DNA of 64,000 bases from assembly GCA_914767715.1 (NCBI GenBank), contig OU612069.1, positions 1,364,001-1,428,000 of the forward strand. The letters are read 5' to 3'. Numbering within the stretch: position 1 is the first letter of the stretch; each line of letters starts with the position of its first letter. The stretch is from Membranipora membranacea (taxonomy: Eukaryota > Bryozoa > Gymnolaemata > Cheilostomatida > Membraniporidae). The position numbers and the translations under genes are program-made. Below, piece by piece: positions 1 to 33,900 of this stretch. The notes under the pieces were generated by a model. It made no database searches. It was not told the DNA's origin and saw nothing but the letters and a program-made list of their open reading frames with translations.

Positions 1-3000
1 AAGTAACTTTGTTCTCTGATAAGTCCAGGATTTCTAGCTCTTGTAACCGGAGTGACCAGCATTTCCTACGAAATATCACATCATTATCTCACTATTGAGG
101 ATATAACAAAAAAATACAGTCGCATCAACTAAAAATTATTGGCCTGACATGTGTATGGGCACCACACAAGTATCATCAACAGTTAACCAATCCTAGCAGA
201 CATGGTGTAACAATATTTTCAACGCATCTCTGGTTTTTTTTCCAGCAAGTGTATGTTTATTTCAGTTACTATGATAAAGAGTTGCCCTTTCTTTCTCATT
301 ACCAAGTGAACCAACTTTATAGTGTTACACTAGGGCAAATTTATCCTTACCAAGGGAGTTTATCCAGCTGTAACCCACAGGCTCTGATATAGAGGTTCTT
401 GAGTTTTCTAGGAAAGGTCCAAGGAGACTTTACATCAGTAACTTTGTTCTCTGATATGTCCAGGATTTCCAGCTTATCTAACTCGTATAACCTACGAAAT
501 ATCACATCATTATCTCACTATTGAGGATTTAACAAAAGAATACAGTTGCATCAATTAAAAATTATTGGCCTGACATGTGTATGGGCACCACACAAGTATC
601 ATCTACAGTTAACCAATCCTAGCAAACATGGTGTAACAATATTTTTAACGCATTGCTGGTTTTTTTGCAGCATGTGTATGTTTATTTCAGTTACTATGAT
701 AAAGAGTTGCCCTTTCTTTCTCATTACCAAGTGAACCAACTTTATAGTGTTACACTAGGGCGAATTTATCCTTACCAAGAGAGGTCATCCAGCTGTAACC
801 CACAGGCTTTGATAGAGAGGCTCTTGAGTTTTCTAGGAAGGTACGGAAGAGACTTTACATCAGTAACTTTGTTCTCTGATAAGTCCAGGATTTCCAGCTT
901 ATCTAACTTGTGTAACCTACGAAATATCGTATCATTATCTCACTATTGAGGATTTAACAAAAGAACACAGTTGCATCAACTAAAAATAATTGGCCTGACA
1001 TGAGTACGGGCACCACACAAGCATCATCCACAGTTAACCAATCCTAGCAAACATGGTGTAACAATATTTTCCATGCATCGCTGGTTTTGTATTCAGCGAG
1101 TGTACGTTTATTTCAGTTACTATGATAAAGAGTTGCCCTTTCTTTCTCATTACCAAGTAAACCAACTTTATAGTGTTACACTAGGGCGAATTCATCCTTA
1201 CCAAGAGAGGACTTCCAGCTGTAACCCACAGTCTCTGATAGAGAGGCTCTTGAGTTTTCTAGGAAGGAGCTGAAGAGACTTTACATCAGTAACATTGTTA
1301 TCTGATAAGTCCAGGAATTCCAGTTTATCTAACTCGTGTAACCTACGAAATATCACATCATTATCTCACTATTGGAGATTTAACTAAAGAATACAGTTGC
1401 ATCAACTAAAAATTATTGGCCTGACATGAGTATGGGCACCACACAAGTATCATCTACAGTCAACCAATCCTAGCAAACATGGTGTAACAATATTTTCAAC
1501 GCATCGCTGTTTTTTTTTCAGCAAGTGTATGTTTATTTCAGTTACTATGATAAAGAGTTGCCCTTTCTTTCTCATTACCAAGTGAACCAACTTGATAGTG
1601 TTACACTAGGGCGAATTTATCCTTACCAAGAGAGGTCATCCAGCTGTAACCCACAGGCTCTGATAGAGAGGCTCTTGAGTTTTCTAGGAAGGTCCGGAAG
1701 AGACATTACATCAGTAACTTTGTTCTCTGATAAGTCCAGGATTTCCAGCTTATCTAACTCGTATAACCTACGAAATATCACATCCTTATCTCACTATTGA
1801 GGATTTAACAAAATAATACAGTTGCATCAACTAAAAATTATTGGCCTGACATGAGTATGGGCACCACACAAATATCATCTACAGTTAACCGATCCTAGCA
1901 AACATGGTGTAACAATATTTTCAACGCATTGCTGGTTTTTTTTTCAGCAAGTGTATGTTTATTTCAGTTACTATGATAAAGAGTTGCCCTTTCTTTCTCA
2001 TTACCAAGTGAACCAACTTTATAGTGTTACACTAGGGCGAATTCATCCTTACCAAGAGAGGACTTCCAGCTGTAACCCACAGTCTCTGATAGAGAGGCTC
2101 TTGAGTTTTCTAGGAAGGAGCTGAAGAGACTTTACATCAGTAACTTTGTTCTGTGATATGTCTAGGATTTCTAGTTTATCTAACTTGTGTAACCTACGAA
2201 ATATCACATCATTATCTCACTATTGAGGATTTAACAAAAGAATACAGTTGCATCAACTAAAAATTATTGGCCTGACATGAGTATGGGCACCACACAAGTA
2301 TCATCTACAGTAAACCAATCCTAGCAAACATGGTGTAACAATATTTTCAACGCATCGCTGGTTTTTTTTTTCAGCAAGTGTATGTTTATTTCAGTTACTA
2401 TGATAAAGAGTTGCCCTTTCCTTCTCATTACCAAGTGAACCAACTTTATAGTGTAACACTAGGGCGAATTCATCCTTACCAAGAGAGGTCATCCAGCTGT
2501 AACCCACAGGCTCTGATAGAGAGGCTCTTCAGTTTTCTAGGAAGGAGCTGAAGAGACTTTACATCAGTAACTTTGTTCTCTGATATGTCTAGGATTTCTA
2601 GTTTATCTAACTCGTGTAACCTACGAAATATCACATCATTATCTCACTATTGAGGATTTAACAAAAGAATACAGTTGCATCAACTAAAAATTATTGGCCT
2701 GACATGAGTATGGGCACCCCACAAGTATCATCTACAGTTAACCAATCCTAGCAAACATGGTGTGACAATATTTTCAACGCATCGCTGGTTTTTTTTTTCA
2801 GCAAGTGTATGTTTATTTCAGTTACTATGATAAAGAGTTGCCCTTTCTTTCTCATTACCAAGTGAACCAACTTTATAGTGTTACACTAGGGCGAATTTAT
2901 CCTTACCAAGAGAGGTCATCCAGCTGTAACCCACAGGCTCTGATAGACAGGCTCTTGAGTTTTCTAGGAAGGTCCAAAAGAGACATTATATCAGTAACTT

Positions 3001-5434
3001 TGTTCTCTGATAAGTCCAGGATTTCTAGCTCATCTAACTCGTGTAACCTACGAAATATCACATCATTTTCTCACTATTGAGGATTTAACTAAAGAATACA
3101 GTTGCATCAACTAAAAATTATTGGCCTGACATGAGTATGGGCACCACACAAGTATCATCTACAGTTAACCAATCCTAGCAAACATGGTGTAACAATATTT
3201 TCAACGCATAGCTGGTTTTTTTTAAGCAAGTGTATGTTTATTTCAGTTACTATGATAAAGAGTTGCCCTCTCTTTCTCATTACCAAGTGAACCAACTTTA
3301 TAGTGTTACACTAGGGCGAATTTATCCTTACCAAGAGAGGTCATCCAGCTGTAACCCACAAGCTCTGATAGAGAGGTTCTTGAGTTTTCTAGGAAGGTCC
3401 GGAAGAGACATTACATCAGTAACTTTGTTCTCTGATAAGTCCAGGATTTCCAGCTTATCTAACTCGTGTAACCTACGAAATATCACATCATTATCTCACT
3501 ATTCAGGATTTAACAACAGAATACAGTTGCATCAACAAAAAATTATTGGCCTGATATGAGTATGGGCACCACACAAGTATCATCTACAGTTAACCAATCC
3601 TAGCAAACATGTTGTAACAATATTTTCAAAGCATCGCTGGTTTTTTTTCAGCAAGTGTATGTTTATTTCAGTTACTATGATAAAGATTTGCCCTTCCTTT
3701 CTCATTACCAAGTGAACCAACTTTATAGTGTTACACTAGGGCGAATTTATCCTTACCAAGAGAGGTCATCCAGCTGTAACCCACAGGCTCTGATAGAGAG
3801 GCTCTTGAGTTTTCTAGGAAGGTCCAGATGAGACATTACGTCAGTAACTTTGTTCTCTGATAAGTCCAGGATTTCCAGCTTATGTAACTCGTGTAACCTA
3901 CGAAATATCACATCATTATCTCATTATTGAGGATTTAACAAAAGAATACAGTTGCATCAACTAAAAATTATTGGCCTGACATGAGTATGGGCACCACACA
4001 AGTATCATCTACAGTTAACCAATCCTAGCAAACATGGTGTAACAATATTTTCAACGCATCGCTGGTTTTTTTTTCACCAAGTGTATGTTTATTTCAGTTA
4101 CTATGATAAAGAGTTGCCCTTTCTTTTTCATTACCAAGTGAACCAACTTTATAGCATAAGGCCACGTGACATTGATATAGCCTGTGATTTTTGTCAGTGA
4201 GTGGGGGTGGGAGAGAAGAGAAGAATGAGTATAGGGGGGAACCATCAATGTAATCTCATGATACTTGGTTCCCCCCTATCTCTTTCACTCATCTCCAACC
4301 CCCACCCACTGACAAAAATCACAGGCTATATCAAATTCACGTGGCCTTATGGTTTATAGTGGTACACTAGGGCGAATTTATCCCTACCAAGAGAGGTCAC
4401 CCAGCTGTAACCCACAGGCTCTGACAGAGAGGCTCTTGAGTTTTCTAGGAAGGAGACGAAGAGACTTTACATCAGTAACTTTGTCCTCTGATAAGTCCAG
4501 GATTTCCAGCTTATCTAACTTGTGTAACCTACGAAATATCACATCATTATCTCACTATTGAGGATTTAACAAAGGAATACAGTTGCATCAAATAAAAATT
4601 ATTGGCCTGACATGAGTATGGGCACCACACAAGTATCATCTACAGTTAACCAATCCTAGCAAACATGGTGTAACAATATTTTCAACGCATTGCTGGTTTT
4701 TTTTTCAGCAAGAGTATGATTATTTCAGTTACTATGATAAAGAGTTGCCCTTTCTTTCTCATTACCAAGTGAACCAACTTTATAGTGTTACACTAGGGCG
4801 AATTTATCCTTACCAAGAGAGGTCATCCAGCTGTAACCCACAGGCTCTGATAGAGAGGCTCTTGAGTTTTCTAGGAAGGTCCGGAAGAGACATTACATCA
4901 GTAACTTTGTTCTCCGATAACTCCAGGATTTCCAGCTTATCTGACTCGTGTAACCTACGAAATATCACACCATTATCTCACTATTGAGGATTTAACAAAA
5001 GAATACGGTTGCATCAACTAAAAATTATTGGCCTGACATGAGTATTGGCACCACACAAGTATCATCTACAGTTAACCAATCCTAGCAAACATGGTGTAAC
5101 AATATTTTCAACGCATCGCAGGTTTTTTTTTCAGCAAGTGAATGTTTATTTCAGTTACTATGATAAAGAGTTGCCCTTTCTTTCTCATTACCAAGTGAAC
5201 CAACCTTATAGTGTTACACCAGGGCGAATTTATCCTTACCAAGGGAGGTCATCCAGCTGTAACCCACAGGCTCTGATAGAGAGGCTCTTGAGTTTTCTAG
5301 GAAGGTCCGGAAGAGACATTACATCAGTATCTTTGTTCTCTGATAACTCCAGGATTTCTAGCTCATGAAACCAGCGTAACCTACGAAATATCACATCATT
5401 ATCTCACTATTGAGGATTTAACAAAAGAATAAAG
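1..5434 (-). repeat. tandem array of about 425-bp units, each carrying one LRR exon
   Basis: About 12.8 head-to-tail copies spaced 425-427 bp, apart from one enlarged by an insertion. On the minus strand each unit has acceptor TTTCGTAG, a 141-nt exon and donor GTAAGG (GTAGGG in one copy). Exons: 5240-5380, 4814-4954, 4388-4528, 3757-3897, 3332-3472, 2907-3047, 2480-2620, 2053-2193, 1627-1767, 1202-1342, 776-916, 351-491 and partial 1-65. Each encodes two LRRs, with cores LEILDLSENKVTDV and LKSLSIRACGLQL, and joins the next through a split Trp codon. No stop or frameshift occurs in any copy. One copy carries a compensating +1/-1 pair near 409-417. Introns are about as conserved as exons, so the duplication is recent or homogenised. 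The partial copy has three extra codons near its start. Confidence 0.9.
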
Positions 5435-8400
5435 TTATATAAACAAAACAAAAATTTCCCCATGCTGAAACATTGATCATAAAAATAACCCATTGACTGG
5501 TTGGCGAACTCATATTGAACCAGACTATAGGGCGCTCACGGTTTTGCCCTATGGATTGAACATTTTTTAACTTACTGATTACTTAGAGCAGACTGCGGAT
5601 CATTCCTCAGGTCCAACATCTCCAGATCTGGTACAAGGTCTCTAAGATTATGTGGAACTTCTCCCCATATTCTCATGTGTGTGACAGTTATATCTGCTGT
5701 CTCTTTTTGAAACTGCGATGCTGTCCGCAGCTTCCCTTCGAAATCATCAGGCAGCTCCATTCTATCATCACTGCCATCCGAATACCAGATACAGTACTCT
5801 GATGAATGCAGATAAGATTATATTAATATATTATATCGGTTATTTGAAAAATATAATTTTGATATTATTCATTATATTATGGACATTTTATCGGTAGATA
5901 TGGCTTCTTGTATATCATATAAAATATAATGAGAGAGGTCATATAGATGCAAGGTCTGAAGGGAGTCAGTAGTAGTAAGGTGTTATTTCATAGTGACATT
6001 TACATCACCCACATCATTGGCCGATCCAACTATCACATCAATTTGTGACAATTACAGCTTTCTACGGTACAACAATTTGGATGCCAGTAATCATACGGAG
6101 TCAAATGTTCTTAGTTGAGCAGACTGTAGGGAAAACTGTAGACAAAAATTTACTATTTGTAAGGGATAGTTAATGTGAGTTGAGCTTCACCAATTAATCC
6201 TAGTTTGATTTATTGCTTGAGAAGGTCAAAGGTGAGTACAGAAGTAAGGAAGAAGAAGAATAGAAGGTTTACTTCGCATATGTCGACATACCTCCATAAT
6301 TGCTGACTTCATCCAGATCCAGATCAACCTTGTAAAATAAAATAACAGTAAACAGCAGTGATATTTATCATTTACGTCATAGTAGCTAGCGCCTCCTCAC
6401 ATTTGGTAACATATTGAAGGTCTCAGGTCAAATTAAGAGAACTCTGGTAACATTTCAAATAGCATCTGGACACAGTTGAATGCTTTAATGCCAGATCATG
6501 GGCACCTGAAGTTGGTGGAAATCTTTGAAAATATGATTATTGGCATGTCATTTGCCATAGTATTTTTTACTCAGTCATAATAGTGGTAAGATCTCTCTTA
6601 CCTCAAGGCCGGTGAGATAGCCGGGAAAAGTCCACACATGTGTTGATAAATTGACTTCGATTTTCACTCGACTTGTATCCTTGTGGAGACTGAATCCTTC
6701 TCCGGTGATTCTCAATGTCCAAGAGTGTGGCTGCACAAGACCCTTATTTATATCACATAATACAAACGGAGGGATGCTTTCTGAAAGTATCTCCTTCTGC
6801 ATCAAGACTTCGAGAAACTTTTCTTTGTAATCTCTACCAATCCAGTCATACAATGAGTCATTCCCTAAGTAGTATATGAGAGGGGAAAACTGATCTGACT
6901 CGCTGACGGCATGGCCTTGTATAAAGAGGACTAATAGCGGTTCGTGAAGGATAAGCACTGCAGTCACATTCTTCTGTTGGCAACTCTTATGAAGGGAAGC
7001 GGCATTAAAGAGGGGTCTGAGAACACTTCGTTCTTTGTAATCAGGAGGAAGATGTCTTCTGTACTCAGGATGCATCTGAAATCAAAGAATATACTGACTC
7101 TAATTTTATTCTCAGACTAGTGTAACAACACGGTGAGCATGACCTAATACTGAATAATATTGCAGTAGTAAGAGTTACTTTGAAGGTTTTAAGACACATC
7201 AGTCGCATTCTCTTGCTTGATATCATAAATGCATCCATGAAATTAAGATTGGAATCAGCTAAAGTTGTTTCTCTAGCTAGTCAGCTTTGAAACAAGCCCA
7301 AAACTGACCCTGTGGGACCACCAGAAGCTGAGTAATGAGGGCCATTCCAGCATTATTGTATAAGGAACCGTTAATCGGCTTCAATTTTTTGTCCTGGAAT
7401 AATCTCTTTAATGACATGAGCTTCATTTCATGGATGTTTTAATGGAGTCCTTAGTTGAGTATGTTATTGGAGGGCTAAGTATGTGTCCGCCATATATACA
7501 TAATGTGATGAGCATTAATATTTTTAGGATAATGGAAACCGACATTTACATAAAAGACATACCAGTAAGAAGATGTCCCCTTCTATTGATTGCCTTGAAA
7601 AATTGTTGACTTGATCTTAGACTGATTCAATTTCACCTAAACTCAGGTTGGGTAATTTGAATTGAACAACATTAATAAAAAAAACATTATATGGGGATGT
7701 AGCGATCAATATGAAGAGCTGATCAAAACGTACCAGATAAGTAAGAGGATCAAGTTTGAGCTGCTTAAGCTGAGGAGGTCTTCTTTTCCCCAATGGAAAA
7801 CCTTCATCAATCATCAATGGATTATCACGTATGTCCAGAACCTCTAGATCTTTCAGGTTGCTCAGGCTGTGGAAGCAAACACAATTATGAGCTAGGATTA
7901 ATAACCCGCAATATTGGCGCCCCAACATATCGCTGAGACATTGCTAGAGTATGCTTGATAATCCACAGAAAATGATGTCTAGCAAATACTTTTTACTAGC
8001 ACTGAAGATGGGAGATATCTGTCAGTTTCCCATCATGTTTACAGATTGACGCTATATTTAATTTTAAATCACAAAAGATTACATATGAACACACTCACCA
8101 ACCAGGTAAGTGGGTTAGTCCACAGTTTGCGATATTTAGTCTCTTCAATCCTTTACTACACTCGCTAACATGTTTCAAGAATGTTTCTTCCACCAGATGT
8201 CCAGACACGGACAGGGAAGTCAAATTTTCTACACCGCCAAGCCTACAAAAGGATAAATATGGACTACCAGGATATTTACTTTCAAGAACGGGATACCGTT
8301 GACCCCAGCCAACTTCTTGTAGACTAGCAATAATCTTTTGGAAAACCGGTAAAGGGCAAGATTTGGGTTGAAGGTTTCGTTGAAGGTTTCAAAGGCGTGC

Positions 8401-10517
8401 CAAAATTTGATTGTAACAAAGAATGAATACCTGGTTTTAATAACACATAGCATCAGGTTCTTCTCAAATTTATGTCACATCATGTATAACATCTTTTCAA
8501 GATGATGTTGATGACAATAAAGTGATACAAAAAAATGTTACCCACCCAAAGCCAATTCAAAATTAGAAAACAAAGAACATTAATAGCTTACCTGAGCTTG
8601 TTGAGATCAAGCGAACACTGATTGAGATACAATCTCTTTAGAGTGACTGGTAGCGACTGCGACAGTTCTTCCACATCCAACTTCTGGTTGAAGGAAAGAT
8701 CGAGAATTTCTAGTGCTTTCAGTGCTTTTAAACCTGAACTGTCAAGTAAAATAGATGCAATACGAATATCTATCCAGGTAAAATTCTTATTTTATTCAGT
8801 ATTTAGACATTAGAGAATTTTTTACGTTTTCTGACTCTTTTGCAGAGTTGTCTGCTCATGTCATGTATTTTGACCAATATTGGATCAAATTCGACCCATA
8901 GTGTCTTTAACTCCTTGATTGGATATAAAGAAGGACTTTCATATGGCTGATCTCAACTGGCATAAGCAAGCACTATATTTTGGGGTGATGCTATTTGATT
9001 TCTCTGTCAATGCCAAGATGTAATAAAAAAGTACCATTTCCATAACTATTTTCAAGCAGGAATTCAATGAAGCTAAAAAGCATTTAATTCTGATGAGGCT
9101 TTTTAAGGATAGCGGGGAGAGTTACCATCACTGATGTGTATGGTTGAAGCAACACATCAGTCATCTTTGATTGGGCCATAGGTACAGAAAAGCTCCAGAC
9201 AACCAGTTTTAAACCTTTTATAAAGGAGCTTGCCGGAGTTTTAGAAAGTTGTTACTAAAATGTCCAAAACATCTTAGTATGAACCTGAATTTGGCTAGTG
9301 GCCCCATCTTTCCAACCTTTTACGCTATCAACATGAATATCTTATACAAAAAAACTTAAACCTAACCTAATATTTGAAAACATCAGTGAGCGAGTTGAAA
9401 TGCAATAGAGAATAATTTACTAATGCTTACAGTGCCAGAGACACCCTTCTCCCTAGCCCCCGGCGGGGGGCCGTCCGCCGGGTGGGAGAAGTCTTGGGGG
9501 CCCAGACTACCTATCACCCTACTCCACACCTTTTAATGCGCACTATTCTTCGCATCTCATGGGCAGCACTCAAACAATGATTAACACTGACTCAGAGACA
9601 GAAAATATATCCCTGGAAATAATAAGATTATCCTCACTCTGTATGTGATATATCTCTAAGATCCAGTCTTCCGAGACTTGGTGCCACAAGCTTCAGTTCT
9701 GACGGCTTTGGTACATCTCCCCATATCTTAACATGTGTGACCTCTTCTGTCTTCTGTCCTTCTGTCTCTTTTATCTCTTTTATCTCTTTTATCTCATTAC
9801 AAAGCTGGTGAATTGTCTTCTCTTTGCCATTGAAGTTTTCCGGTGGCGTAGCGTTTCCTATTTTGTACCAAATGCGGTATTCTACGAATAGTAAAAGTAT
9901 TTTCCGGAAAGTACCCGTAAATAAAAGTGAGTTTCGCATTTACTACTATATCACTAAATGTACTTTAGGAAAGTACCATACATTACATGTTAATGCATTT
10001 TGTTACCATTGCTCAACTTCTTCCAAGATTGTTTTTATGGAAACATAAAACCCTCACCTCAAACATAGAAGTAAAATTAATGTATACTCAATCAAATCTT
10101 AACTTGAGTTTCTATGTACCAACATTGCGTTATTTAGCTAGCGCCCTCACAAACAGAACAGAAGCAAGGGCGTCGTGGTGAGGCTAATCTAAGAGGTATA
10201 TTACTGCTTACTTTTAGCTACAGAATGTTTCTCATCGCCACTCTAAAAAAAAAGATGTACTGAAGATAAGAGTAAGGTGACAAGGAGGTCACAATTGCAA
10301 ACGGAACAATTTTAACATTTTTGTGTCGGATAGACAAATTTTACAATATTACCAACTAAAATTTAGGCAGGTAAAGTACTCCAGGGTAAATAGCAGTGAT
10401 ACTAAATATTACACCTCCAATTAAGAAAATGAGTTGGAAAAGTACCTCACTCTCTGTCACAGATAGGTTCTCAAACTCCTGCACCAGTCCCTCTGTGTCG
10501 GATCTTGCTTGTGTCAT
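1..10517 (-). CDS. multi-exon leucine-rich-repeat protein gene, 3' end outside window
   Basis: Assembled by hand from GT-AG exons in compatible phases. In transcript order: 10446-10517 (start ATG), 10212-10242, 9638-9881, 8592-8738, 8099-8242, 7734-7866, 6602-7075, 6292-6328, 5576-5798, then 13 array exons from 5380 down to 1. The N-terminus MTQARSDTEGLVQEFENLSV is hydrophilic with no signal peptide, so a cytosolic protein is likely (inference). LRR cores are plain, for example LEILDLSFNQKLDV, LTSLSVSGHL, LEVLDIRDNPLMID and LEILDLSENKVTDV. A 158-residue non-LRR exon separates two modules that each begin with an entry exon. LRR proteins usually bind other proteins; the ligand here is unknown. 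I saw no NACHT, TIR, kinase or membrane segment, but the end of the gene is missing. A further exon between 8243 and 8591 cannot be excluded. Exon boundaries are predictions. Confidence 0.8.
4148..4359. mobile_element. palindromic MITE inserted in one array intron
   Basis: A 198-bp insertion (4155-4352) interrupts one unit of the array. Its two halves are near-complete reverse complements (CATAAGGCCACGTG at one end, CACGTGGCCTTATG at the other). TTTATAG occurs on both sides (4148-4154 and 4353-4359) but only once in the other units, so it is the target-site duplication. A G directly before the right copy leaves an 8-bp duplication with one mismatch possible. No coding capacity. Confidence 0.85.
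5576..5798 (-). CDS. LRR gene, entry exon of module 2
   Basis: 223 nt, phase 1 in and phase 2 out, acceptor TTCATCAG and donor GTAAGT. It begins YCIWYSDGSDDRMELPDDFE, later VTHMRIWGEVP, and ends LEMLDLRNDPQSALSN. It is clearly related to 9638-9881. Its phase-2 end joins in frame to the first array exon (5240-5380), giving …SNQ then LRWFHELEILELSEN. Confidence 0.7.
6292..6328 (-). CDS. LRR gene, second micro-exon (phase 0 to 1)
   Basis: A 37-nt exon, VDLDLDEVSNYG plus one base, acceptor TTTTACAAG and donor GTATGT. Its phases match both the exon ending at 6602 and the entry exon starting at 5798. It is the positional counterpart of 10212-10242. Confidence 0.55.
6602..7075 (-). CDS. LRR gene, large non-LRR domain exon
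   Basis: 474 nt (158 codons), phase 0 on both sides, acceptor TTTCAG and donor GTAAGA. It begins MHPEYRRHLPPDYKERSVL. The middle has a hydrophobic strand-like stretch (TAVLILHEPLLVLFIQGH). The end is beta-rich: PHSWTLRITGEGFSLHKD, then VKIEVNLSTHVWTFPGYL. I do not recognise the family. The internal ATG is a codon after the splice site, not evidence for a separate gene, although an alternative start there cannot be excluded. Confidence 0.65.
7734..7866 (-). CDS. LRR gene, last LRR exon of module 1
   Basis: 133 nt, phase 2 in and phase 0 out, acceptor TTCCACAG and donor GTACGT. It encodes LSNLKDLEVLDIRDNPLMID and then PQLKQLKLDPLTYL. The phase change ends the chain of phase-2 LRR exons and links to the phase-0 exon at 7075. 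Confidence 0.7.
8099..8242 (-). CDS. LRR gene, two-repeat LRR exon
   Basis: 144 nt (48 codons), phase 2 on both sides, acceptor CTTTTGTAG and donor GTGAGT. It encodes LGGVENLTSLSVSGHLVEET and later GLKRLNIANCGLTHLPG, two LRRs with the consensus Asn-Cys-Gly-Leu in the second. It joins in frame to the next exon. Confidence 0.75.
8243..8591 (-). other. LRR gene intron with possible decayed exon
   Basis: Between two good LRR exons, the minus strand is open over 8229-8453 but gives no clean LRR. A stretch reading LALYRFSKRLLLVYKKLAGV has leucine spacing faintly like the second half of an LRR exon. No acceptor/donor pair keeps phase 2. I treat it as intron that may hold an eroded exon. Confidence 0.3.
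8592..8738 (-). CDS. LRR gene, divergent two-repeat LRR exon
   Basis: 147 nt, phase 2 on both sides, acceptor TTGACAG and donor GTAAGC. It encodes two LRRs: LKALEILDLSFNQKLDVEEL and LPVTLKRLYLNQCSLDL. The layout matches the array exons (first repeat with an Asn, second with a Cys in that position), with two extra codons, so it is a diverged relative of the array unit. Confidence 0.75.
9446..9491. repeat. GC-rich hairpin
   Basis: A 46-bp inverted repeat in an AT-rich intron: the arms pair CTTCTCCC and CCGGCGG with CCGCCGG and GGGAGAAG, with a few unpaired bases and a GGGGCCGT loop. It is the most GC-rich patch in the region. No coding potential was seen. Confidence 0.6.
9638..9881 (-). CDS. 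LRR gene, entry exon of module 1
   Basis: 244 nt, phase 1 in and phase 2 out. It encodes YRIWYKIGNATPPENFNGKE, a Lys/Glu-rich stretch with a short repeat (IKEIKEIKE), then VTHVKIWGDVP and a final LRR-like GRLDLRD. The exon at 5576-5798 has the same phases and the same landmarks (IWY near the start, IWG about 50 residues later, then LDLR), so the two are duplicates. I do not recognise a named domain; it looks like an N-terminal cap of an LRR solenoid (inference). Confidence 0.65.
10212..10242 (-). CDS. LRR gene, micro-exon (phase 0 to 1)
   Basis: A 31-nt exon, SGDEKHSVAK plus one base, between a T-rich acceptor (TTTTTAG) and donor GTAAGC. The one leftover base completes a Lys codon with the next exon. 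It has a phase-matched counterpart before the second entry exon (6292-6328). Confidence 0.55.
10446..10517 (-). CDS. LRR gene, first coding exon
   Basis: 24 codons from the ATG at 10515-10517 to a donor GTACTT, leaving phase 0. The peptide is acidic (…EFENLSVTESE). A polypyrimidine tract ending in AATAG lies about 20 nt upstream, so a 5' untranslated exon further right is possible. This ATG is chosen because the frame continues cleanly into the next phase-0 exon. Confidence 0.6.
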
Positions 10518-12775: not shown

Positions 12776-14100
12776 GTAAGTAGTCCTTAGTAGCGTAGGA
12801 GTGCAGATCACTCAACATTAGTCTTTTTCCCTTTGCGTTGTAAGGTGCAATCTGCTAATAATAAATGAGTAATCGTTTGTAACCTAGCCTGTCTGGACAA
12901 GACAGGCTATTTGAAACCCTGTTTGCCCATCCTCCCTGGTTTGCCCTTGAAACACTGGGTCAGGAGATCTGAGTTATCTCACCCCAACAAGGAGGTAGAC
13001 AACTTTGTTACTCTGATTAAAGAAAAGTTGAAGTTGGCAGAACCACCATATTCTACAATGGATTACTAGTTATGTTGTGTCTCATTGAAGAAAAGTTGCA
13101 ATTTGGCTCATGCAAAACTTGGACAGGTAAAAAGTCAACTGTAAATCAACATCATGGTTTTCTGCAGCCAATACCAGATTTTTAGTCTATTATTATTTAA
13201 CCATGACAACCAAGTAGACACTAAAGATAAAAGACGCGTTTTTGATTGCCTAATTAGATGAACAGGCGTTTGGAAAACCATAAATGAGTACAACTAGCGT
13301 TTTGCGTTTAAAACTCAATTAGTGTCAAATAAGCGTTTACAAGCGCTTTATGCGTACAGGTTGGCAAGTATGCCAGTGGATCAGGAGCGACTTGGAACCA
13401 AATGGACCAAACTTGGTCTAATCAAAACCTCATTAACTTGTTATACCTCACTTAGAGGACACGTAACTCTGCTTCAAAGGTTGCCTTTGGTTTTAAAGCA
13501 CTGAACGCTGCACACCCTTTTTGAAATTGATATGGCTAGCTGATAGCCACTTCTCCAGGTATAGCCACTTTGACACTTTTTTCTTATTCCGCTTGTGTTA
13601 AACAGTACCCAAATAAAGAGAGGAAAATCCGAAAGACAACCCAAGATTCATGCTCAGAAATACTGTCTATATGTTTATAAGATTCACTCACTTTACTTCT
13701 CAACTTAGAAATCTGCCTCTTGAGGTAAATCTTACATCATCAAGCTTGTCTATCCATCCTCTGGTCTGGGCTCTTATGTTTTGTACAGATAAGCAGCCTT
13801 TCGCTCTAGTCTCTGATCCTAGAATGTTATTATATGTGAGAACCAGTCACTACAGGGCCAATGAACCCATAGTTGTTAGCAACCTTTGTTAGCAATGTCA
13901 ATAGTAACCATGGACTGTTAATGTGAATAAATAATAATCAATACAAAAAAGAGTTACCGGTTGTTAAATTTATAATAAAACCTCATGCCGGAAGTAATCA
14001 AAACAACGCTATCAATCTACCTCAGCATCAGTTAACTAATATGAGGTGCAGTTCCCTGCTATCAAAGCATGAGCAAAACTATCTCACTTTTATTACTGCC

Positions 14101-15381
14101 AGGGGGATCTCTAGCTTTTAATTGTGACCCTGCCAACTTTTACTATCCTGTGCAGCACAGCTGCACTCCGAGGGCGCTTGCGCCCGAGCAAACCCAGCTG
14201 CCCCATCCATGTACCTGGTCGAGTCAATGGTTTAACGACAGTGGAGAATAGTGCTGAGGTCAAGGAATGGGGTGCCTTTTTTTAACTCATACAGGCTTAT
14301 AGATGAGGCACACTCAAGAATGGAATTCGTGGATCGGAGGAGGTGTTGGGCGTATTGAAGAATAGAGAAGGGAAGATGTAGTGTAGTGTATTTTTGATGT
14401 ATGATGTAAAATCAATAATCTACATCATTCCATTTCATTCCAGTGTTGTGATCTACTTTAAATGATGTAGATTATTGATTTTACATCATACATCATTTAA
14501 AAAACACCTAGTTAAATTGATTTTGAAATAGTAAGACTAATTTTCTATGATTGCGCAAACTTTGCTCAATAAGGAACAAGATTTGTACCCAATGCAGGCA
14601 CCTAAACTAGTGACACAACACAACTTCGACTCAAACACTAGATTACATACCATGCATGCAAACAGCTCACTAATATGTCTGCGATAAACTAATATGTCCT
14701 TTGACAGAGTTTTTTTTATCTCATATACCTAAATTTAAAATAGACATCAATTGGCACAAGATATTCAATAATGATAAAAGACCAGTAAGTGACTCGAACG
14801 AACCGGAATTGACATTCATCTTGAAATAGTTGTGCTCAGAATATGATCTATTCCTGTATCAGGTTGCTATGATTGTTAATGTTCAATATGCATGAATAAA
14901 ATACATCCACCCATGAGATTTCAATAATTGTGATCGTGATAGTTGTTTTGTGTGAGTTCTCTCAAGCCAAACCCTCACTGCCTTTCTTTGTTAGAGTTGG
15001 ATCTGAAATGTGAATAAGGTCTAGTGTTTTAACCTCACACCTCACATTATCTGAAACTGAGTAGACAGAAAGATTGCAAATGGTATTTACGATGATACAT
15101 ACACGATTCAATTTGAAGCACACTACAAATCAAAAATACACTACACTACATCTTCCCTTCTCTATTCTTCAATACTCCCAACACCTCCTCCGATCCCCGA
15201 ACTCCATTCTTGAGTGTGCCTCATCTATAAGCCTGTATGAGTTAAAAAAAGGCACCCCATTCCTTGACCTCAGCACTATTCTCCACTGTTGTTAAACCAT
15301 TGACTTGACCAGGTACATGGGGCAGCTGCACAGGATAGTAAAAGTTGGCAGGGTCACAATTAAAAGCTAGAAATCCCCCCT
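14101..15381. repeat. large inverted repeat (foldback-like element)
   Basis: The left arm (about 14101-14397) is the reverse complement of the right arm (about 15129-15381), with a spacer of about 730 bp. Shared landmarks include GTGACCCTGCCAACTTTTAC, CAAGGAATGGGGTGCC and GAGGCACACTCAAGAATGG. The left arm has about 40 extra bp (near 14158-14200) including GGGCGCTTGCGCCC. No transposase frame was seen. Confidence 0.75.
14396..14494. repeat. 34-bp-arm perfect hairpin
   Basis: 14396-14429 and 14461-14494 are exact reverse complements (core ATGATGTAAAATCAATAATC) separated by a 31-nt loop. It lies directly inside the left arm of the 14.1-15.4 kb inverted repeat. Confidence 0.8.
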
Positions 15382-15627
15382 GACCCTATATACTTGTCAT
15401 GCATGAGCATTCCTGATTTTTTCCCAGAGGAGCTTTGAAATATTAATTTTTTGAAATAGTGCGTAACTACAGCAGTGCTAGGTTCCTTACTGCAAAAATA
15501 ATTGCTCTGTTGGTTCTATTCCAAGGAACATTTTGAGCTTTATTGTTGCTAGTTTGCTTTCAAATATAATTATTAAAATCCTATCCAATATGTTATCACA
15601 TCTATAAGATCATGTCGCCACACTAAC

Positions 15628-16638
15628 TTGGAGGTTAAGCTGTTCAGCTTGTTGTTGTATAAGACTGAGTCCTCCTGAGAGCAGCTTAGAAGAGCGGTCA
15701 TGGCTCATCCTGGCCTAGATTAATCTGTGAGATCAGCTCCTCACCAACCTGCAATATAAGTCAGTAAATAATTAATCCATCTATCAGCAAACAAGACTCA
15801 CATTACAATCTCTTAGCAGTCACAGAACTGTATACCAGACACTGTGACGCTGTGTATCAGACACTGTGACACTGTGTATCAGGCACTGTGAAGCTGTGTA
15901 TCAGACACTGTGACACTGTGTATCAGACACTTTGACGGTGTGTATCAGACACTGTGTATCAGACAATGTGACGCTGTGTATCAGTGCCAAAGTTCTTTGT
16001 TGGCAAGAATCTGAGATGCTTGCAACATGGCTGAGACGAAATTTTATGACATTAACTGCGATCTGATTCTGACAGCTAAATTTTAACCTTTGTATAAAAG
16101 ACTCATCACTGACCTTTCAACCCTCAGTTCAGTTATCTTCTCATCCGCATTATTCATAACTCTCTTGTGATTGGCTCTCTTACCCTCAAATGCTTGATCT
16201 GATACACTGCGTGATGAAGCCTTAAATAGAAAATCTGGCATCTTAGAACATTTTAATTTATGGGTGTTATGATAGTGGAATCTGTATAAGTCAATACAAC
16301 TAAGATATAACTTCTGTGTCATACAGCATTGTCTGTGTTTTACTTCAAGATTCAAAACCTCATGCATTCTCTTTAATTATGTTTTTTTCCGTGATTCATT
16401 GATGGGATTAGGAAGGGTGTTTTATATTTATGGGGATTTAGGTCTGCACATGAATTAGGTGGATTATTAACCTTCTGAGAGAGTACATCTTCGACGGTCT
16501 GACCTCAGCGATATAATCCTGTACTTGATCTGATAGTTGTGTTCGCTCATCTATTAACTCTTTGATATCATAACTAAGTCTCTGTGTCTCAGCAGTCATG
16601 TTGGTCAGATCATCCTCTAGTAATCTGTTCTCTCTGTA
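15628..16638 (-). pseudogene. decayed fragment of a CEP135/TSGA10-like coiled-coil gene
   Basis: Three exon-like blocks with GT-AG borders. 16472-16638 gives YRENRLLEDDLTNMTAETQR and then QVQDYIAEVR; a -1 shift is then needed to continue as TVEDVLSQK up to donor GTTAAT. 16114-16220 gives SVSDQAFEGKRANHKRVM and ITELRVER. 15628-15748 gives VGEELISQI and, only after another shift, SHDRSSKLLSGGLSLIQQQA. Heptad-like, Glu/Lys/Gln-rich sequence indicates coiled coil. The style (RENRLLxDDLTxMTxE…VQDYIxEV) is what I remember of centrosomal CEP135/TSGA10 proteins; that name rests on recollection and needs a search. Two frameshifts argue for a pseudogene. It is not simply continuous with the gene at 61-63.7 kb, which ends in its own stop. 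Confidence 0.5.
15830..15984. repeat. 22-bp tandem repeat
   Basis: About seven copies of a 22-bp unit (GTGTATCAGACACTGTGACA and variants), one copy shortened. It lies beside the coiled-coil pseudogene. Confidence 0.8.
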
Positions 16639-20786: not shown

Positions 20787-20882
20787 CACAGGTCTACTCC
20801 AAAACCTGGGATTTTGGCAATGTTTGACTCAAGGGGGGCAGTCAAACATTGCCAAAATCCCAGGTTTTGGAGTAGACCTGTG
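20787..20882. repeat. perfect 42-bp-arm hairpin
   Basis: 20787-20828 and 20841-20882 are exact reverse complements, with a 12-nt loop (TCAAGGGGGGCA). The arm contains CCAAAACCTGGGATT, which recurs singly near 25888, so the arm belongs to a dispersed repeat. The plus ORF starting at 20824 begins inside the loop and is not a gene. Confidence 0.9.
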
Positions 20883-21454: not shown

Positions 21455-22193
21455 CTGCTATGCACCTTGGTATATCCTATGGAGATGATAACCTCTTTAT
21501 CTCTCCCTCTGAGCATACCAAGTTTTTAGGGGTATTCATAGACAACACACTAACTTTCAGCAATCATGTTGACTATATTATATCTAAATGCTCTCGACGA
21601 TTATACTTGATGAGACTGCTAAAACGCATGGGCATGGATAGTGATGGCCTCAGAACCTTCTATATAGCTAACATTAAGTCTATAATCTCCTACGCCTGCC
21701 CTGCATGGTATAATCTACTATCAGACACCGATAAAACACGACTCGAGAGGATCCAGCGCTCTGCTACTCGGATTGTGCTGCCATTCTCTGACAACTACGA
21801 GCAGAGGCTGGACCATCTAGCACTGCCACCCATCACAACATTCCTGCACACCACTTGCAGTGAACATTTCACTAGAATAGCTGACAACGATAATCACCCC
21901 TTGAACTCTCGTATTAAAATAAACACAAACAGAACGTCTGCTCGTAGAGCAAAAATAGATAAATATAGGCCATCCAAGTGTAGAACAACCAAAAGACAAA
22001 ATACCTTTTTTGAATTTTATATGCGATTTTTTAACTAATGCAGCTCAGACTCCTTTTATTTTTATTTTTCCATGTATGTGCTGTACATTCGATGCTATCA
22101 ACCTATCACAGGATGGATATTAGAATTTAGGCAATAAACAAACTTCAAACTTCAACTTCAAACTTCAAACTTCAAACTTCAAACTACAGATAA
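21455..22193 (+). mobile_element. 5'-truncated non-LTR retrotransposon (LINE), 3' end
   Basis: An open frame of 192 codons (21460-22038) encodes the C-terminal end of a reverse transcriptase: KFLGVFIDNTLTFSNHVDYI, then SYACPAWYNLLSDTDKTRLE and RIQRSATRIVLP. This matches the thumb and end of Jockey/CR1-type LINE ORF2. The stop is followed by a short 3' UTR and a tail of AAACTTC repeats (about 22140-22190), a CR1-like ending. The catalytic core (FADD) and endonuclease are absent, so it is dead on arrival. Confidence 0.85.
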
Positions 22194-22897: not shown

Positions 22898-23044
22898 CAT
22901 ACGATGAATACTTATGATTGTAAATGGATCAGAGTGGTAAACCTTACTTAGGAGCTCAACTATCGTGTCAGTACCCAGTAGAATCAGCAGTCGATCAAGA
23001 TGGCCTAACCTGAGACTCTTTTCCCAAAATCTCAATCTCTCTGA

Positions 23045-23592
23045 AGTTCAAGTTTAAAGTTTGTTTATTGCCCAAATTCTCATATCCATCCTGTGATGGG
23101 TTGACAGTATAGAATGTACGGCACATAAATGGAAAAATAAAAATAAAAAGAGTCTGAGCTGCTTTAGTTGAAAAATCGCAAATAAAATTCAAAAAAGGTA
23201 TCATGTCTTTTGGTTGTTCTACACTTGGATAGCCTATATATTATATCTATTTTTGCTCTACGAGCGGATTTCCTGTTTGTATTTATTTTAATACAAGAGT
23301 TAAAGGGGCGATTATCGTCAGCTTTTTTATTGAAATGTTCATTGTAAGTGGTGTGCAGGAATGTTGTGATGGGTGGCAGTGCTAGATGGTCCAGTCTCTG
23401 CTCGTAGTTGTCAGAGAATGGCAGCACTATCCGAGTAGCAGAGCGCTGGGTCCTCTCTAGTCGTGTTTTATCGGTGTCTGATAGTACATTATACCATGCA
23501 AGGCAGGCGTAGGAGATTATTGACTTTTTGTTAGCTATAAAGAAGGCCATTCGTATCCATGCCCATGCGTTTCAGCAGTCTCATCAAGTATA
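23045..23592 (-). mobile_element. second 5'-truncated LINE copy, opposite orientation
   Basis: The minus strand encodes SIISYACLAWYNVLSDTDKT, RTQRSATRIVLPFSDNYEQR and a C-terminal FFEFYLRFFN, closely matching the copy at 21.5 kb. Its 3' end (GGGCAATAAACAAACTT) also matches. The copy is shorter at the 5' end and has small internal deletions. The two copies point towards each other. Confidence 0.85.
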
Positions 23593-26500
23593 ATTGTTGG
23601 GAGCTTCAAGCTTCCAGTCTTGACTTCTTGGTGATTCTACAGAACATAACCATAAATACAGGAGGTCTACTGTGTGCCTGCATGCAGTATAAAGATCCCC
23701 CTCTGCCTCTTTGGAAAAAGAGTAGCCCACACAAGCCACCCGAGCTTAAGGGGGCCCGTTAAATAGGGCGATCAAATAAGACCCAGTGCATAGAGAAAAA
23801 TAACGTCATACTTATCCCCATATTGACATGTGATACCCAGATACATATCTGGATCCAGACCCAAATCCGGATCCAGATTCAGATGGTTGTGTAAAGCTTG
23901 TAACATATCAGAATCAGACCTAGCTAGGGGGGAGGATAATTGTCACCATTAGTCAGCTAAAATATAGAACGGTATCAAATTTATCTTTGAGCTTATGCTT
24001 ATCAAATCACGATGTTGCCTACATTGAAACAAAGTAATTTTATAATTGATTTGACTTTGGTTTGCTTGGCATGTACATTAAAGAACCTTCAGAGTTGTGT
24101 TTGTGTGGATGTCTGCACCAATAAATTTACCTGAGCCAAGGACCAGAGCAACATTTAGTCTGGCAACTAGTTCTGCAGTAGTTTTGCAATATTTTGACAC
24201 TGAAACATTCATAGCACTTAAGGGTAAAAATTATGTGTAGTGTGAGAAATTTCTTTCTCTTTGATTTCCTACATTTCCACTTGTAAGGTTTCAAAGCGTA
24301 CCAGAGCAATATTTATATAACGGCTATCTATTTTAGAGAACTGTAAAGACTAATGAATTAAGTTATCTTCAACTTTGACAATGACATAATATCATTATTT
24401 TAATTTCAACTTATGTGAAAAAAATTAGTAGTTACAAAAATTTGGAAGTGGTAGCTTACTGGGCTGATACAAAATATTGCATAACTACTGCAGAACCAGC
24501 TGCCAGACTATATATTGCATTGGTCCTTCTGTATTCGTGATCATGATGGAAGATTCATACTAAAGGACAGGCCACACCTGGTTGATTTGACACGTTTCGT
24601 ATAAATTATTCATGATTAATTTCGTACGAATTGGGATTTCCACTATTTCGTGAAGCGTTGGATCTTCACGATGCACGAATCCGAATCGTGTAAATTTTCA
24701 CGAAATGTTATCTGATTGGCTGTCAGATTTGTTTGATTTCCTGTCTCGTTTTGATTGATAAGTCAAGGCCATATCTATGTAAACAACTTTGGTTAAAAAG
24801 ATGGAATGGTTGATCAATATGTGGAGCTACTCATTGATTTTGACCTGGGGCAAGAGGGAGAAGGGATACAATGACTAATGGGGTATCAAATTGAATAAAT
24901 ATGATTAGATAGTTGAGCCTAAGCATATCCAGAAGCTGAATCACTGGACCGGTTGTTATAATGAACAAGAAGAAACAGCTTCTCCTTGGTTTAATTTTTT
25001 ATTTATCACTGTAGGCCTATGGTTTAGATTGGCTGAGGAGGATTACACCCATAAATAATGAGTACGAATTTGGGAAATGACAATCATGTGTGGCAGCATT
25101 CTGCGCATGCTCAGCTCTGGGCATGAGCTTATCTCTGCAAAGTTGAGTCTTGGAATTCCGAAGCCATCTGATTGGCTACCTGCTCTGGTGACATTCTCCC
25201 CATAGCGTGCGTATTTGTTATTAATAGTTATCCTCTCTTGTCATTATTAGCTGATTTTGATTGACAGTTTATGCAGGGGATATCCCATTTTCCCTTTCCA
25301 AAGTTGCAATCAGAACCCAAACTAAACTCATTGTTCTTGCACATGCGCAAATTCAAGTCACGCATGATGCATACTTAGCCTTACGACACCTGCTTTGTGG
25401 TAATGATAGCCTAGTTTATCAGTGATCTACATGCCCAGTCAGATCATGAGAGTCAGTATGGTGTGGCAGGCTAATATTCGTACGAAATTTAATTTGCAAG
25501 AATTAGTGGAAATTTGCACGATCATGTGGCCTCTGCTTAACAGTTTCCTGGTATTGATATATTGATAGATAAATATTCTATAAGAAGTATATCTCTCCAG
25601 TTATTGTAGAGTTATTATGAGTAATTTCCACATTCATTTTATCATGATCACTCAAAAAATCCATTGTGTAGTGATTGGCATTGTTAAATTTTCAAACTCC
25701 CAAATAATATGCTTATGGTCGAACTCATAAACTATTCATGTTTTTATTGTATGGTTAAGGTAATGTCAATGCCCCAGAAAGAATAATTAGATATGTTCAT
25801 CTTTACAGATCAGAGAGACTGCACAAAAAGAATAGAATTCTGAAATTTTATAACTTGGTAGTTACAAGGTAGACAATATTTGGGTCCAAAACCTGGGATT
25901 TCCAGTGTCTGGTTTTTCCCTTCCTGCACAGTGGTTCTTGCTATGAGTTTGGTAAGACGATGAGTAGACGCAAAGATCTGACACACAGCAACGAAATAAC
26001 ATTCTCACTTCTCAATGCTCAGCAGTGTTATAACAAATAGATTTATATCGTTTTGTTGAATAGTACTGCCATAGTTATGTGATGCATTGAAAAAATAAAG
26101 GTTCTTCTCGGTGAAAATACTGGATAGTATTAGAAAAACAAAGTATGCAGAAGGGGTTATTCTTTTGACTTTAACAGTACCTTCTACTCCATACCACTCC
26201 ATCATGCTAGGGCAAGAGATGCCAATGTTTTTTACCCAGAGGAACTTTGAATTTTTCAACGCTGTAAATATTGACTTGCTCAACAGCGTAAACTCGCACC
26301 GTAAACACAAACCGTAAACACACCTATTTTGCCGAAAACCGAGACTGACAATATGCAAACTGAGGGCGAGTAGCCATGGAATGATATGCACAGAGGGGTG
26401 GTTTCATGCTGCTGGGGCCGGTCATGAGGAGGTTATACCACAGAAGGGCTTGAAACAGCCCTTGACTCATGGTTTCTAGCTGAAGACCTGTGTGTTGTGC

Positions 26501-30900: not shown

Positions 30901-33900
30901 GTTAAAAATAATGAGAAGGTTGTAGATATTGATTGGTATTATAAAAGTGAGGTTTAAGAACAAACATGATTAAATATTGGTCCCCAGGCAGCCCCTGCCT
31001 ATCATGTCACTTCCATTTGCACCTTTGGATGGATAAGGTTTGTCAGTTCTGTTCAGTTTCTGGAACAATTTTTCGCGCTGATCGCAATGGTACCAATGAA
31101 CCTTACACTAAGTTGCGCAATGGGCCGCTAATTGCCAAAAACGCAGCTGGTAAAAAGGAAGTGATCAAAAAATGGTGATATGTTTTCAAAACATCCAGAA
31201 TCTGAAAGGGCATGTCATAATTAGTGGACCTATAATTTTACATGTGTCTGCTATCATAAAAAGCTTAGATGCGGCCAACAACGGTTGCAATACCCATTTT
31301 ATCACCTGTGTATAACCATCATTAATGCTAAACCTATTTTTCAATTATGCTGCCGCCCAAAAACAAGGCTTCGAATGTTCGTATTGATTTGATTTTTTAT
31401 GGTGACTGTGTATTGACCCTCCCATCGCATGACACCAGTTTTTAATGCTCTGAGTATTCTTAGGTTTCCTTTATAGTATCATAAAAATTGTCTTTATAAA
31501 GTAATATAGCGTGAAAAGTGAACTCCTTCAAGCATCATCAGAAAGGTGCGTAGTGCTGAAAAAAATTTTATTGGTCATTGATGGTGTCAATACAGAATCA
31601 CCATAAAAAAATCAGATCGATACGAATATTTGAAGTCAGTTTTTGAGGCGTCTGCAAAATTGAAAAAGTAGTGTCATTTCAATGATAGTTATATACAGGT
31701 GATATAAGGGGGTATTGCAACCGTTGTTGGCCACATCTCGGCTATTTATGATAGCAGACCCATTTTTAATTTGCAGATCCACTAATTATGACATGCTCTT
31801 TCAGATTTTGAACGTTTTAAAACCATATCAACATTTTTTCATCACTTTCCCTTTTGTTGGCAGTGTTTCTCACTTTATCACTTATTATAAGGTTGGTCAT
31901 TTACTAAATATTTGAAATATCATGCTGATATTATACCAAAAACTGACCGAGGTATGTATGAATCTGATTGCAGAGTTTGAGTAGCCCAACTCATAAGGTG
32001 AACACAGGACAGACCTTTGAAATCTAAAAAAACAGCAATTTTGGCCATTTTCGGCAGCATTTCTGGACCTTTGCTGCCTAATGTGCTTTTTTATAAGATA
32101 CATTATCACCATTGCGACCGCCTTAAAAAACTTCCCTGGAATCCACTCTTAGAAATTATCCATCCCATTTTGCAAATGAAGTTGCGTTTCTAGCCACATT
32201 TATTGGTAAGCTGCCACTAAACTATATTGAAAAATAATATTATTAATATCCATTTTATTATAAACTTAGCAAGCTTACAAGGATAGTTTTTGTTTACTGT
32301 TACAGGTTTGTGGTAAGATATATTGCTAAGTTTATTGCATAAATCAATTTCATAAAATTGTCCACAAACCTGAAGTTGAGTGTTGTGTTGATTATTTACT
32401 GAGTTGTCATTTGTCAAATCTTTGTTCCCATTGAAAGATGCAGTGTATTTTCCCGTAATATCCTCTTGTGACGAAATAAAGCAAAGAGAATCAACATGTA
32501 TCTTAAAAAAAGAACTGTAATAAACTAACTCGATAGATAAGAGTACTCACCAATATAAAAAGATTAATTTTATCTCAGTTTATTTAACTATTTTGTATCC
32601 CTGTAGTTGGCATCTTAAATTATACGCAAAAGTGTTATATATCTCTGTGCTCATTGCCCAACTCTCAAGCTCTCATTTTAAAACATAAAACTCAATGTTA
32701 TAGCTATCAATCTGCCTATCCAGCCTGGGTCTGACTCACATTCGCCTATCAACACATATCTCGATATGCTGTAGTCATCTATTATCATTGTCATTATTTA
32801 GTGTGATGTAAAAGATAAGATGCATTCGGTGTGAGAATAAAGAATAGTAAACAGTCTGCTTACCACTCTCAAAATCATTCTCTGGTGTTGTCAAACCTGT
32901 AAGAGTGCCTCCCTGTGCAGCCGTGTTAAAAAGACTAGAACTGACATTAACCTTGATAAAGTATAAAAATAAAGGAATTTGTGTGTCAATCATTAGTTGT
33001 GTCAATGTTAGTTATTATGATTTTTAAACATTTATCAATTACGTAACCTATCCCAAATAAACTGGGCTAGATCCATCACATTTAATTTTGACTCAGAAAA
33101 AATCTGATTACTGGAGAAACATTGATGAGTGAGTACACTTTCATATCCTAATTTTGCCAATAAAGCAGACAAATGAATATGGTACGGCCCAAGACAACTC
33201 CAACCAATGATAGTGTTCATGGGCTGAGCACCAAATGTTCCCATTCTGTACAACACCAAACCCTACAATCAGTTAGACATTCTTTGACCACACACCTCTG
33301 CATGGAAGTTGGGATCATTAGAAATTGAACGTTTTACTCCTACAGGTCTCTCTCCGGGTCCTAAAAAAGCATTAATGGTAGAAACAACTCAAGCCTTGCT
33401 GTAGCTGAACCTGATAATAAGTAATGTCAATTAATCTGTTATCATTTTACGAACTAATTTTCAGTTTTTGCTTTCATCAGTGACTCAAGTTTAATTTAGG
33501 CTGTGCTTGAAAGTTGTTTACTAGGCCCTGAAAGAACTTGGATTTTAATCCTCTTCTCAAGAACCATCTTGTGTTTAAGAGTCCATGTACACTGTTAATA
33601 TAATTTCTTACCACTTTCTCCGGAAAAACTGTTGCATCTTCCTTTTCCAGCATTCTAAATCAGTAAAATCATAAAAATAAAAATTATAGTTTAAAATTTA
33701 GTAATATCATATATATTGGAGCTAGGTAATAATAATGTTTGAGGAAGTAAAAGAATGAGTTGATGGACCTTATCACCATGCCTGCTCTTCACTTCTTTGA
33801 GCCATATGCTCACATCCCAATAAACTGATAAATCTGTTTTCATCTTTCAAGGTCAAAGTAGTGTAAGTAATGTATTGAAAATTGTCAAAGGATATACCTG

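Follow-up and report, generated by a model that had tools for sequence, protein, structure and literature searches.

The 425-bp tandem repeat at the beginning of the analyzed window, a 64,000-nt stretch of contig OU612069.1 of the bryozoan Membranipora membranacea, is confirmed to be an array of minus-strand exons in one gene, each encoding two leucine-rich repeats (LRRs), as had been proposed in the sequence-only reading. Judged from the sequence, we consider it probable that a two-LRR exon has been amplified within a single coding gene and that its copies are spliced into a long LRR solenoid of changeable length.

Tandem Repeats Finder reported 9.6 copies with a period of 425 bp (positions 65-4154; 94% matches) and 2.5 copies with a period of 426 bp (4353-5436; 93% matches). 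Twelve complete minus-strand exon copies, spanning positions 5380 down to 351, succeed one another at a spacing of 425 to 427 nt with the single exception of 631 nt. All 12 are 141 nt long with AG/GT borders, enter and leave in phase 2, contain no stop codon in this frame, and are directly preceded by TTTCGTAG and directly followed by GTA(A/G)GGAT; the splice sites of the array are intact at 13/13 acceptors and 12/12 donors. Read on the minus strand, the array starts with unit 1 (5240-5380), whose 5' codons are divergent. Type A exons are present in units 2 (4814-4954), 4 (3757-3897), 5 (3332-3472), 6 (2907-3047), and 9 (1627-1767), and type B exons in units 7 (2480-2620), 8 (2053-2193), and 10 (1202-1342); unit 3 (4388-4528) is partly type B, unit 11 (776-916) intermediate, and unit 12 (351-491) divergent. 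Unit 13 (1-65), also on the minus strand, is truncated by the window edge and in frame, but its first residues are divergent and its 5' end is three codons longer, so that its length differs from that of units 1 to 12. The original description of twelve complete copies of one length and frame holds. The gene has at least 13 near-identical two-LRR exons, and the window contains neither the other end of the array nor the 3' end of the gene.

Eleven of the array introns measure 284 to 286 nt, and one (3898-4387), downstream of unit 3, reaches 490 nt because it harbors a near-palindromic, MITE-like insert at about 4155-4351, whose inverted ends (CATAAGGCCACGTG) and TTTATAG flanks on both sides were identified by eye; the insert region matches its own inverse at 81.5% over 233 columns. 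Since the introns are of near-equal length too, recent amplification alone accounts for the equal unit lengths, and the exact exon length is weaker evidence than it first appears. The symmetric phase 2 of every complete unit means that gain, loss, or skipping of units preserves the reading frame, just as had been predicted, and the upstream exons also join in frame. An assembly error may be present within the array.

According to the LRR register assigned in this analysis, each unit comprises one repeat of 23 and one of 24 residues, and the exon border precedes the first strand motif by six residues. A profile search with joined exons had been suggested as a check, and four joined units indeed exceeded the curated cut-offs of the Pfam families LRR_8 (E value of 1.9e-13) and LRR_4 (1.3e-11). 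Two single units scanned alone stayed below the LRR_4 cut-off (7.9e-4 and 2.7e-5), and one of them cleared those of LRR_1 and LRR_6. Two long plus-strand open reading frames of 115 and 123 amino acids cross the array, neither of which matched a Pfam family. Coding on this strand was rejected, since in its best frame just 6/12 units lack stops over the length of the exon, compared with 12/12 for the minus-strand frame.

The array is part of an open gene model with 22 exons and 1,087 codons, matching phases, and no stop. Nine upstream exons, all on the minus strand, run in frame into the array, and their 501 complete codons contain no stop in the model frame, whereas the alternative frames have 35 and 39. 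The layout consists of two LRR blocks around a 158-residue domain, and each block is opened by a related YxIWY module. The inferred first coding exon (10446-10517), whose start codon is uncertain, and a likewise inferred short N-terminal exon (10212-10242) precede the first YxIWY module (9638-9881). The first LRR block continues with a two-LRR exon of 49 codons (8592-8738; LRR_4 E value of 3.3e-4, below cut-off), a second exon of 48 codons that we read as two LRRs (8099-8242; weak Pfam match with a best E value of 0.025), and a last LRR exon (7734-7866; weak match to LRR_4 with an E value of 0.14). The 158-residue domain exon (6602-7075) and a short linker exon (6292-6328) are followed by the second YxIWY module (5576-5798), which ends in phase 2 into the array. 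The exon at 8592-8738 shares 48% identity with an array unit (E value of 4.5e-5). As both upstream two-LRR exons have the phase 2-2 format, the array probably amplified a pre-existing module by unequal exchange, and since the two YxIWY modules share 42% identity, blocks and not units alone were duplicated.

A search with the 1,087-aa query, whose words were drawn exclusively from residues 1 to 500 and in which scoring covered the 7,989 candidates with the highest word overlap, gave 307 matches; among the 120 matches listed, the Pfam annotation comprised LRR families, and the best identity was 27% over 56%. The first 549 residues matched seven PDB sequences (four "LIC" proteins and three LRRC32), all via the LRR block. 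Residues 1 to 502 retrieved four NCBIfam families far under their cut-offs, the best of which, XopAC, matched over the LRR block (E value of 2.2e-10; 39.9 bits versus a cut-off of 450); these matches are read as general LRR similarity. Relatives of the 158-residue domain were not found in the collections searched. Residues 258 to 480 of a 549-aa version of the protein had none at an E value of ≤1 among 543 candidates, and the exon itself had no match among PDB sequences at the same threshold. Its 8 and 26 pattern matches in viral and prokaryotic contig collections, respectively, yielded no confirmed relative, an absence that says little given the viral or prokaryotic nature of these collections. 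The predicted structure of this exon is poor (mean pLDDT of 57.6), and that of the YxIWY module, based on two sequences, is moderate (pLDDT of 71.4) with a predicted strand-helix-strand-helix-strand order; neither model matched a PDB structure at an E value of ≤0.001. Two Pfam families retrieved with the first YxIWY exon (E values of 0.1 and 0.27, below cut-off) were taken as chance matches. Within the window, no Rfam match and no tRNA was detected.

The variation among the units is mosaic. The four-gamete test is failed by 64 of 190 site pairs, and the distances between exons show no significant correlation with those of the flanking introns (Mantel p values of 0.11 and 0.90, with low power for 12 units), both as expected under exchange between units. 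Variants common to at least two units are concentrated in the exon (19/141 sites versus 7/284 intron sites; Fisher p value of 2e-5), four of the seven intron sites lying within the first 25 intron bases. The shared exon variants, which largely belong to one diverged haplotype, suggest exchange of exon tracts. Such a pattern would favor an array in which distinct exon variants are maintained and shuffled by exon-tract conversion, so that the recognition surface varies between alleles or individuals. However, linked sites of the type B haplotype make up most of the excess, and without the 11 exon sites, which we ourselves assigned to type B, and one intron site, it shrinks to 8/130 versus 6/283 (p value of 0.043).

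The same explanation draws on codons 20 to 26, which exceed all others of the 40 seven-codon windows in variability (dN of 0.29 versus dS of 0.04 over all 66 unit pairs), and on an 18-nt scan across the whole unit (p value of 0.037), but the hot spot at codons 24 and 25, where entropy is highest, was picked after inspection of the data and falls into the convex segment of the register assigned here. Among the units of this one gene, which are not alleles, no concave-face enrichment was found, as 8 of 38 amino acid variants lie at the 10 concave "x" positions compared with 8.3 expected. The variable recognition surface envisaged in the sequence-only reading is thus not supported, and the comparison of dN and dS proposed as a check is neutral-like, with 41/50 distinct exon changes being nonsynonymous versus 74% expected (p value of 0.26). 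We regard an array that generates recognition diversity as unlikely.

The neutral-like spectrum would also agree with satellite-like amplification in a decaying or neutral gene, whose units would be open because they are young and whose expansion would be without function. Purifying selection on the array exon is not detectable by this test, and selection tests consequently do not argue against degeneration. The exon diverges at about the rate of the intron (51 distinct changes in 141 sites versus 79 in 284; p value of 0.12; mean dN of 0.099, dS of 0.078, and intron divergence of 0.052 among units), the near-constant lengths extend to the introns, and about two stops would be expected by chance, which makes their absence weak evidence. 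Decay is countered by the intact frames (12/12) and splice sites of the array, by the fully open flanking exons, and by the LRR scaffold residues, whose entropy is lower than expected (4.5 versus 7.3; p value of 0.034) in the register assigned here, with a p value of 0.12 in the matching count test. A functionless expansion is rather improbable.

For the favored coding array, the following scenario is probable. An exon encoding two LRRs, similar to those retained upstream, would have been amplified at least 13-fold together with its intron, presumably by unequal crossing-over and gene conversion. As each complete unit starts and ends in phase 2, the units would be spliced in vivo into one long solenoid of at least 24 repeats, which would likely serve as a nearly periodic protein-binding or scaffold structure. 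The changeable property would then be the length of the solenoid and not the chemistry of its concave face.

Similar arrays are already known in ciliates, and the nearest described system is that of Tetrahymena, a precedent not mentioned in the sequence-only reading, followed by the two-LRR exons of NLRP genes and KIV-2 of LPA. Tetrahymena decodes TAA and TAG as glutamine, whereas both triplets are absent from the 1,087 codons of the present model, which contain 36 CAA/CAG codons. NLRP proteins carry nucleotide-binding (NACHT) and pyrin domains, neither of which was detected in the exons scanned against Pfam (the two short N-terminal exons and the linker were not among the single-exon queries) or within residues 1 to 502 scanned against NCBIfam, the 3' part of the gene lying beyond the window. 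The excerpt on Tetrahymena describes arrays of 90-bp LRR exons with phase-2 introns, for which ectopic recombination is invoked, T. thermophila genes having between 1 and 51 of these exons and young LRR genes numbering thousands; to the knowledge of its authors, exactly-90-bp phase-2 LRR exon arrays were undescribed in other organisms (PMC6564038). Both systems share tandem LRR exons of one exact length (here 141 nt in 12/12 complete exons in phase 2-2, with three additional codons in the cut thirteenth), phase-2 introns throughout, and inferred exchange between units. In contrast to the Tetrahymena genes, the exons of the present array encode two LRRs in 141 nt instead of 90 bp, are flanked by modules for which relatives were not found, and were seen in one gene.

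In the excerpt on NLRP genes, an exon consists of two alternating LRRs and is frame-preserving and skippable or repeatable, and alternative splicing of such an exon was shown for human NLRP3 (PMC6642158). Two LRRs per frame-preserving exon are common to both, but the NLRP exon has 171 bp with LRRs of 28 and 29 residues (23 and 24 here, in our register) and its border lies inside the beta-sheet instead of six residues before a strand motif; near-identical copies, as in the present array, are not described in that excerpt. According to the corresponding excerpt, LPA KIV-2 units comprise two exons in about 5,550 bp with about 40 known alleles, and their exons are 98 to 100% identical, unit types being defined by three synonymous exon SNPs and >100 intronic differences (PMC7613587). 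The bryozoan array resembles KIV-2 in its near-identical in-frame exon units with unit types within one gene, but in the single assembly its exons diverge at least as strongly as its introns. The analogy to lamprey VLRs drawn earlier extends, like that to amphioxus VLRs and VLR-like proteins, to the construction from LRR modules. The excerpted sources describe VLR modules as inserted stepwise in developing lymphocytes (PMC3900441, PMC4731796) and VLRC as variable mainly on its concave surface (PMC3900441); the array, by contrast, consists of ordinary exons chained by intact splice sites, as would not be expected of an incomplete gene, and its variation is not enriched on the concave face.

A two-LRR version in a second lineage would mean that phase-2 LRR exon arrays have at least two origins, and the array would exemplify a coding module as the direct target of satellite-style amplification. 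The most far-reaching reading, a germline LRR receptor in a non-ciliate in which unit number varies between alleles, exon-sized conversion tracts move variants while introns are homogenized, and a coding satellite is the diversity store of an innate recognition solenoid, appears improbable to us. The array opens a clean test of whether solenoid length is allelic, spliced, or fixed. Literature searches for tandem exon duplication with leucine-rich repeats found nothing (a broader search gave other subjects, judged by title and beginning of the abstract), and those for phase-2 introns in tandem LRR exons gave nothing beyond Tetrahymena. A further search combining exchange and LRR returned the Tetrahymena arrays and the gene duplication of PRAME.

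The tandem array is a genuine in-frame array of LRR exons. Tandem repeat analysis places its units (1 to 13, numbered from 5380 down to 1) 425 to 427 bp apart, with a single exception of 631 bp, and each contains on the minus strand one exon of 141 nt (1 nt, 46 codons, and 2 nt), preceded by TTTCGTAG and followed by GTA(A/G)GGAT. The sequence-only reading of a modular exon with fixed length and open frame stands: all 12 complete copies measure 141 nt without an in-frame stop, splice sites are intact (acceptors, 13/13; donors, 12/12), and the phases match. A typical unit translates as LHELDKLEILDLSENKVTDVMSLPDLPRKLKSLSIRACGLQLDDLSW, in which our reading of the register would place two LRRs, one of 23 and the other of 24 residues; the LRR assignment has support from Pfam, where the match is clear for four joined units and weak for single units. 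Unit 13 is interrupted by the window edge, and its start is longer by three codons.

Nine exons from 10517 to 5576 continue into the array in a single frame with agreeing intron phases, and this upstream frame has no stop in 501 complete codons, compared with 35 and 39 in the alternative two frames. The inferred start codon of the gene model may be misplaced, and no signal-peptide-like hydrophobic stretch was visible by eye at the corresponding N-terminus. The protein comprises, in order, a short N-terminus, a first YxIWY module (9638-9881), three LRR exons, a 158-residue domain, a linker, a second, related YxIWY module (5576-5798), and the array. The first two upstream LRR exons are phase 2-2 with 49 and 48 codons and, as we read them, would encode two LRRs each; Pfam LRR support was weak for the second and third (best E values, 0.025 and 0.14). 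For the non-LRR parts, searches of viral, prokaryotic, or mixed collections yielded no relative. The YxIWY module has a predicted strand-helix-strand-helix-strand fold (mean pLDDT, 71.4), and since the model had no PDB match at E ≤ 0.001, we can only infer that it would suit an LRR solenoid as its irregular first turn. The two modules are 42% identical, and over 46 residues the 49-codon exon shares 48% identity with the array unit (E = 4.5e-5); these identities suggest that duplication affected a block as well as a unit and that the array unit was derived from an exon format existing beforehand. Possible small exons seen by eye on the minus strand at 13770-15760 could belong either to a 5' neighbor or to an upstream part of the array gene.

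Exon arrays have previously been reported, e.g., for Tetrahymena LRR genes, whose tandem exons of exactly 90 bp show an extreme phase-2 bias, are present in 1 to 51 copies in a T. thermophila gene, and are attributed to ectopic recombination, possibly with retrotransposition (PMC6564038). Human NLRP genes contain frame-preserving two-LRR exons, of 171 bp each in NLRP3, whose exon 5 undergoes alternative splicing (PMC6642158), and in LPA the KIV-2 repeat, which is polymorphic, consists of near-identical exon units (PMC7613587). The array logic is common to all three systems, whereas length, LRR size, and modules set the present array apart. Among the titles and abstract starts of open-licence papers that were searched, such an array appeared in no organism other than Tetrahymena. 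Tetrahymena uses TAA and TAG for glutamine; the array gene differs in that TAA, TAG, or TGA occurs at 0 of the 1,087 codons of its model, which is consistent with the standard nuclear code and speaks against a Tetrahymena gene. Its overall appearance suggests an animal gene.

The mean difference per site among copies is 0.0856 in the exon and 0.0502 in the intron, and the numbers of distinct changes (51 in 141 and 79 in 284 sites, respectively) do not differ significantly (p = 0.12). Of 50 classed exon changes, 41 are nonsynonymous, where the intron spectrum would predict 74.1% (p = 0.26); the 51st, a stop if taken alone, reads W owing to a second change in the codon. Mean pairwise dN, dS, and intron divergence are 0.099, 0.078, and 0.052 (66 pairs), and therefore dN/dS and N:S among the array units show neither purifying selection nor positive selection overall. 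Codons 20 to 26 have a dN of 0.288 and a dS of 0.044, compared with 0.074 and 0.086 in the remaining codons, an excess (p = 0.037 in an 18-nt window scan across the whole unit) in a window picked out in the same data. The proposal of a variable recognition surface gained no support from differences between units. The ten concave positions are unenriched, with 8 of 38 amino-acid variants (8.3 expected) and an entropy of 4.0 (4.3 expected), and variability peaks at residues 24 and 25, in a convex segment by LRR register, unlike in lamprey VLRC, where the concave surface carries most variable residues (PMC3900441). Scaffold positions have an entropy of 4.5, below the expected 7.3 (p = 0.034), and 10 variants versus 14.0 expected in the count test (p = 0.12).

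Variants common to at least two units occupy 19 of the 141 sites in the exon and 7 of the 284 in the intron (p = 2e-5, treating sites as independent), four of the latter within the first 25 intron bases, and sites variable in a single unit only are alike in exon (25/141) and intron (65/284). Rotation of the exon label along the unit brings 9 of the 425 windows to 19 shared-variant sites. The excess mostly represents a diverged haplotype, type B, of the units at 2480, 2053, 1202, and partly 4388; removal of type B sites (11 exon sites assigned by eye and one intron site) leaves 8/130 versus 6/283 (p = 0.043). The four-gamete test is failed by 64 of 190 site pairs. Among 12 units, at low power, exon distances did not significantly track those of the downstream intron (r = 0.32, p = 0.11) or those of the upstream one (r = -0.32, p = 0.90). 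The simplest reading of the shared variants would be tract exchange, in which short, about exon-sized tracts may have passed between units or come from a diverged one beyond the window.

Elsewhere in the window, an inverted copy pair (21590-22160 and 23042-23604; 89% over 574 columns) contains a 203-aa plus-strand ORF that had no Pfam match and that we take, by eye, to resemble the end of a non-LTR reverse transcriptase. Palindromes or inverted pairs like fold-back elements, 70 to 90% alike, lie at 35699-36434, 45141-45846, 20787-20882, and 14102-14398 with 15129-15379. One repeat family, which has inverted arms within it, is present at both 31151-31855 and 61869-62745 (about 80 to 87% identity). 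Minisatellites occur at 56090-56274 (8-bp unit, 23 copies) and 60737-60967 (16-bp unit, 14 copies). On the minus strand, 57199-57678 is a 160-aa open frame that matched no Pfam family and may be an exon of a neighboring gene.
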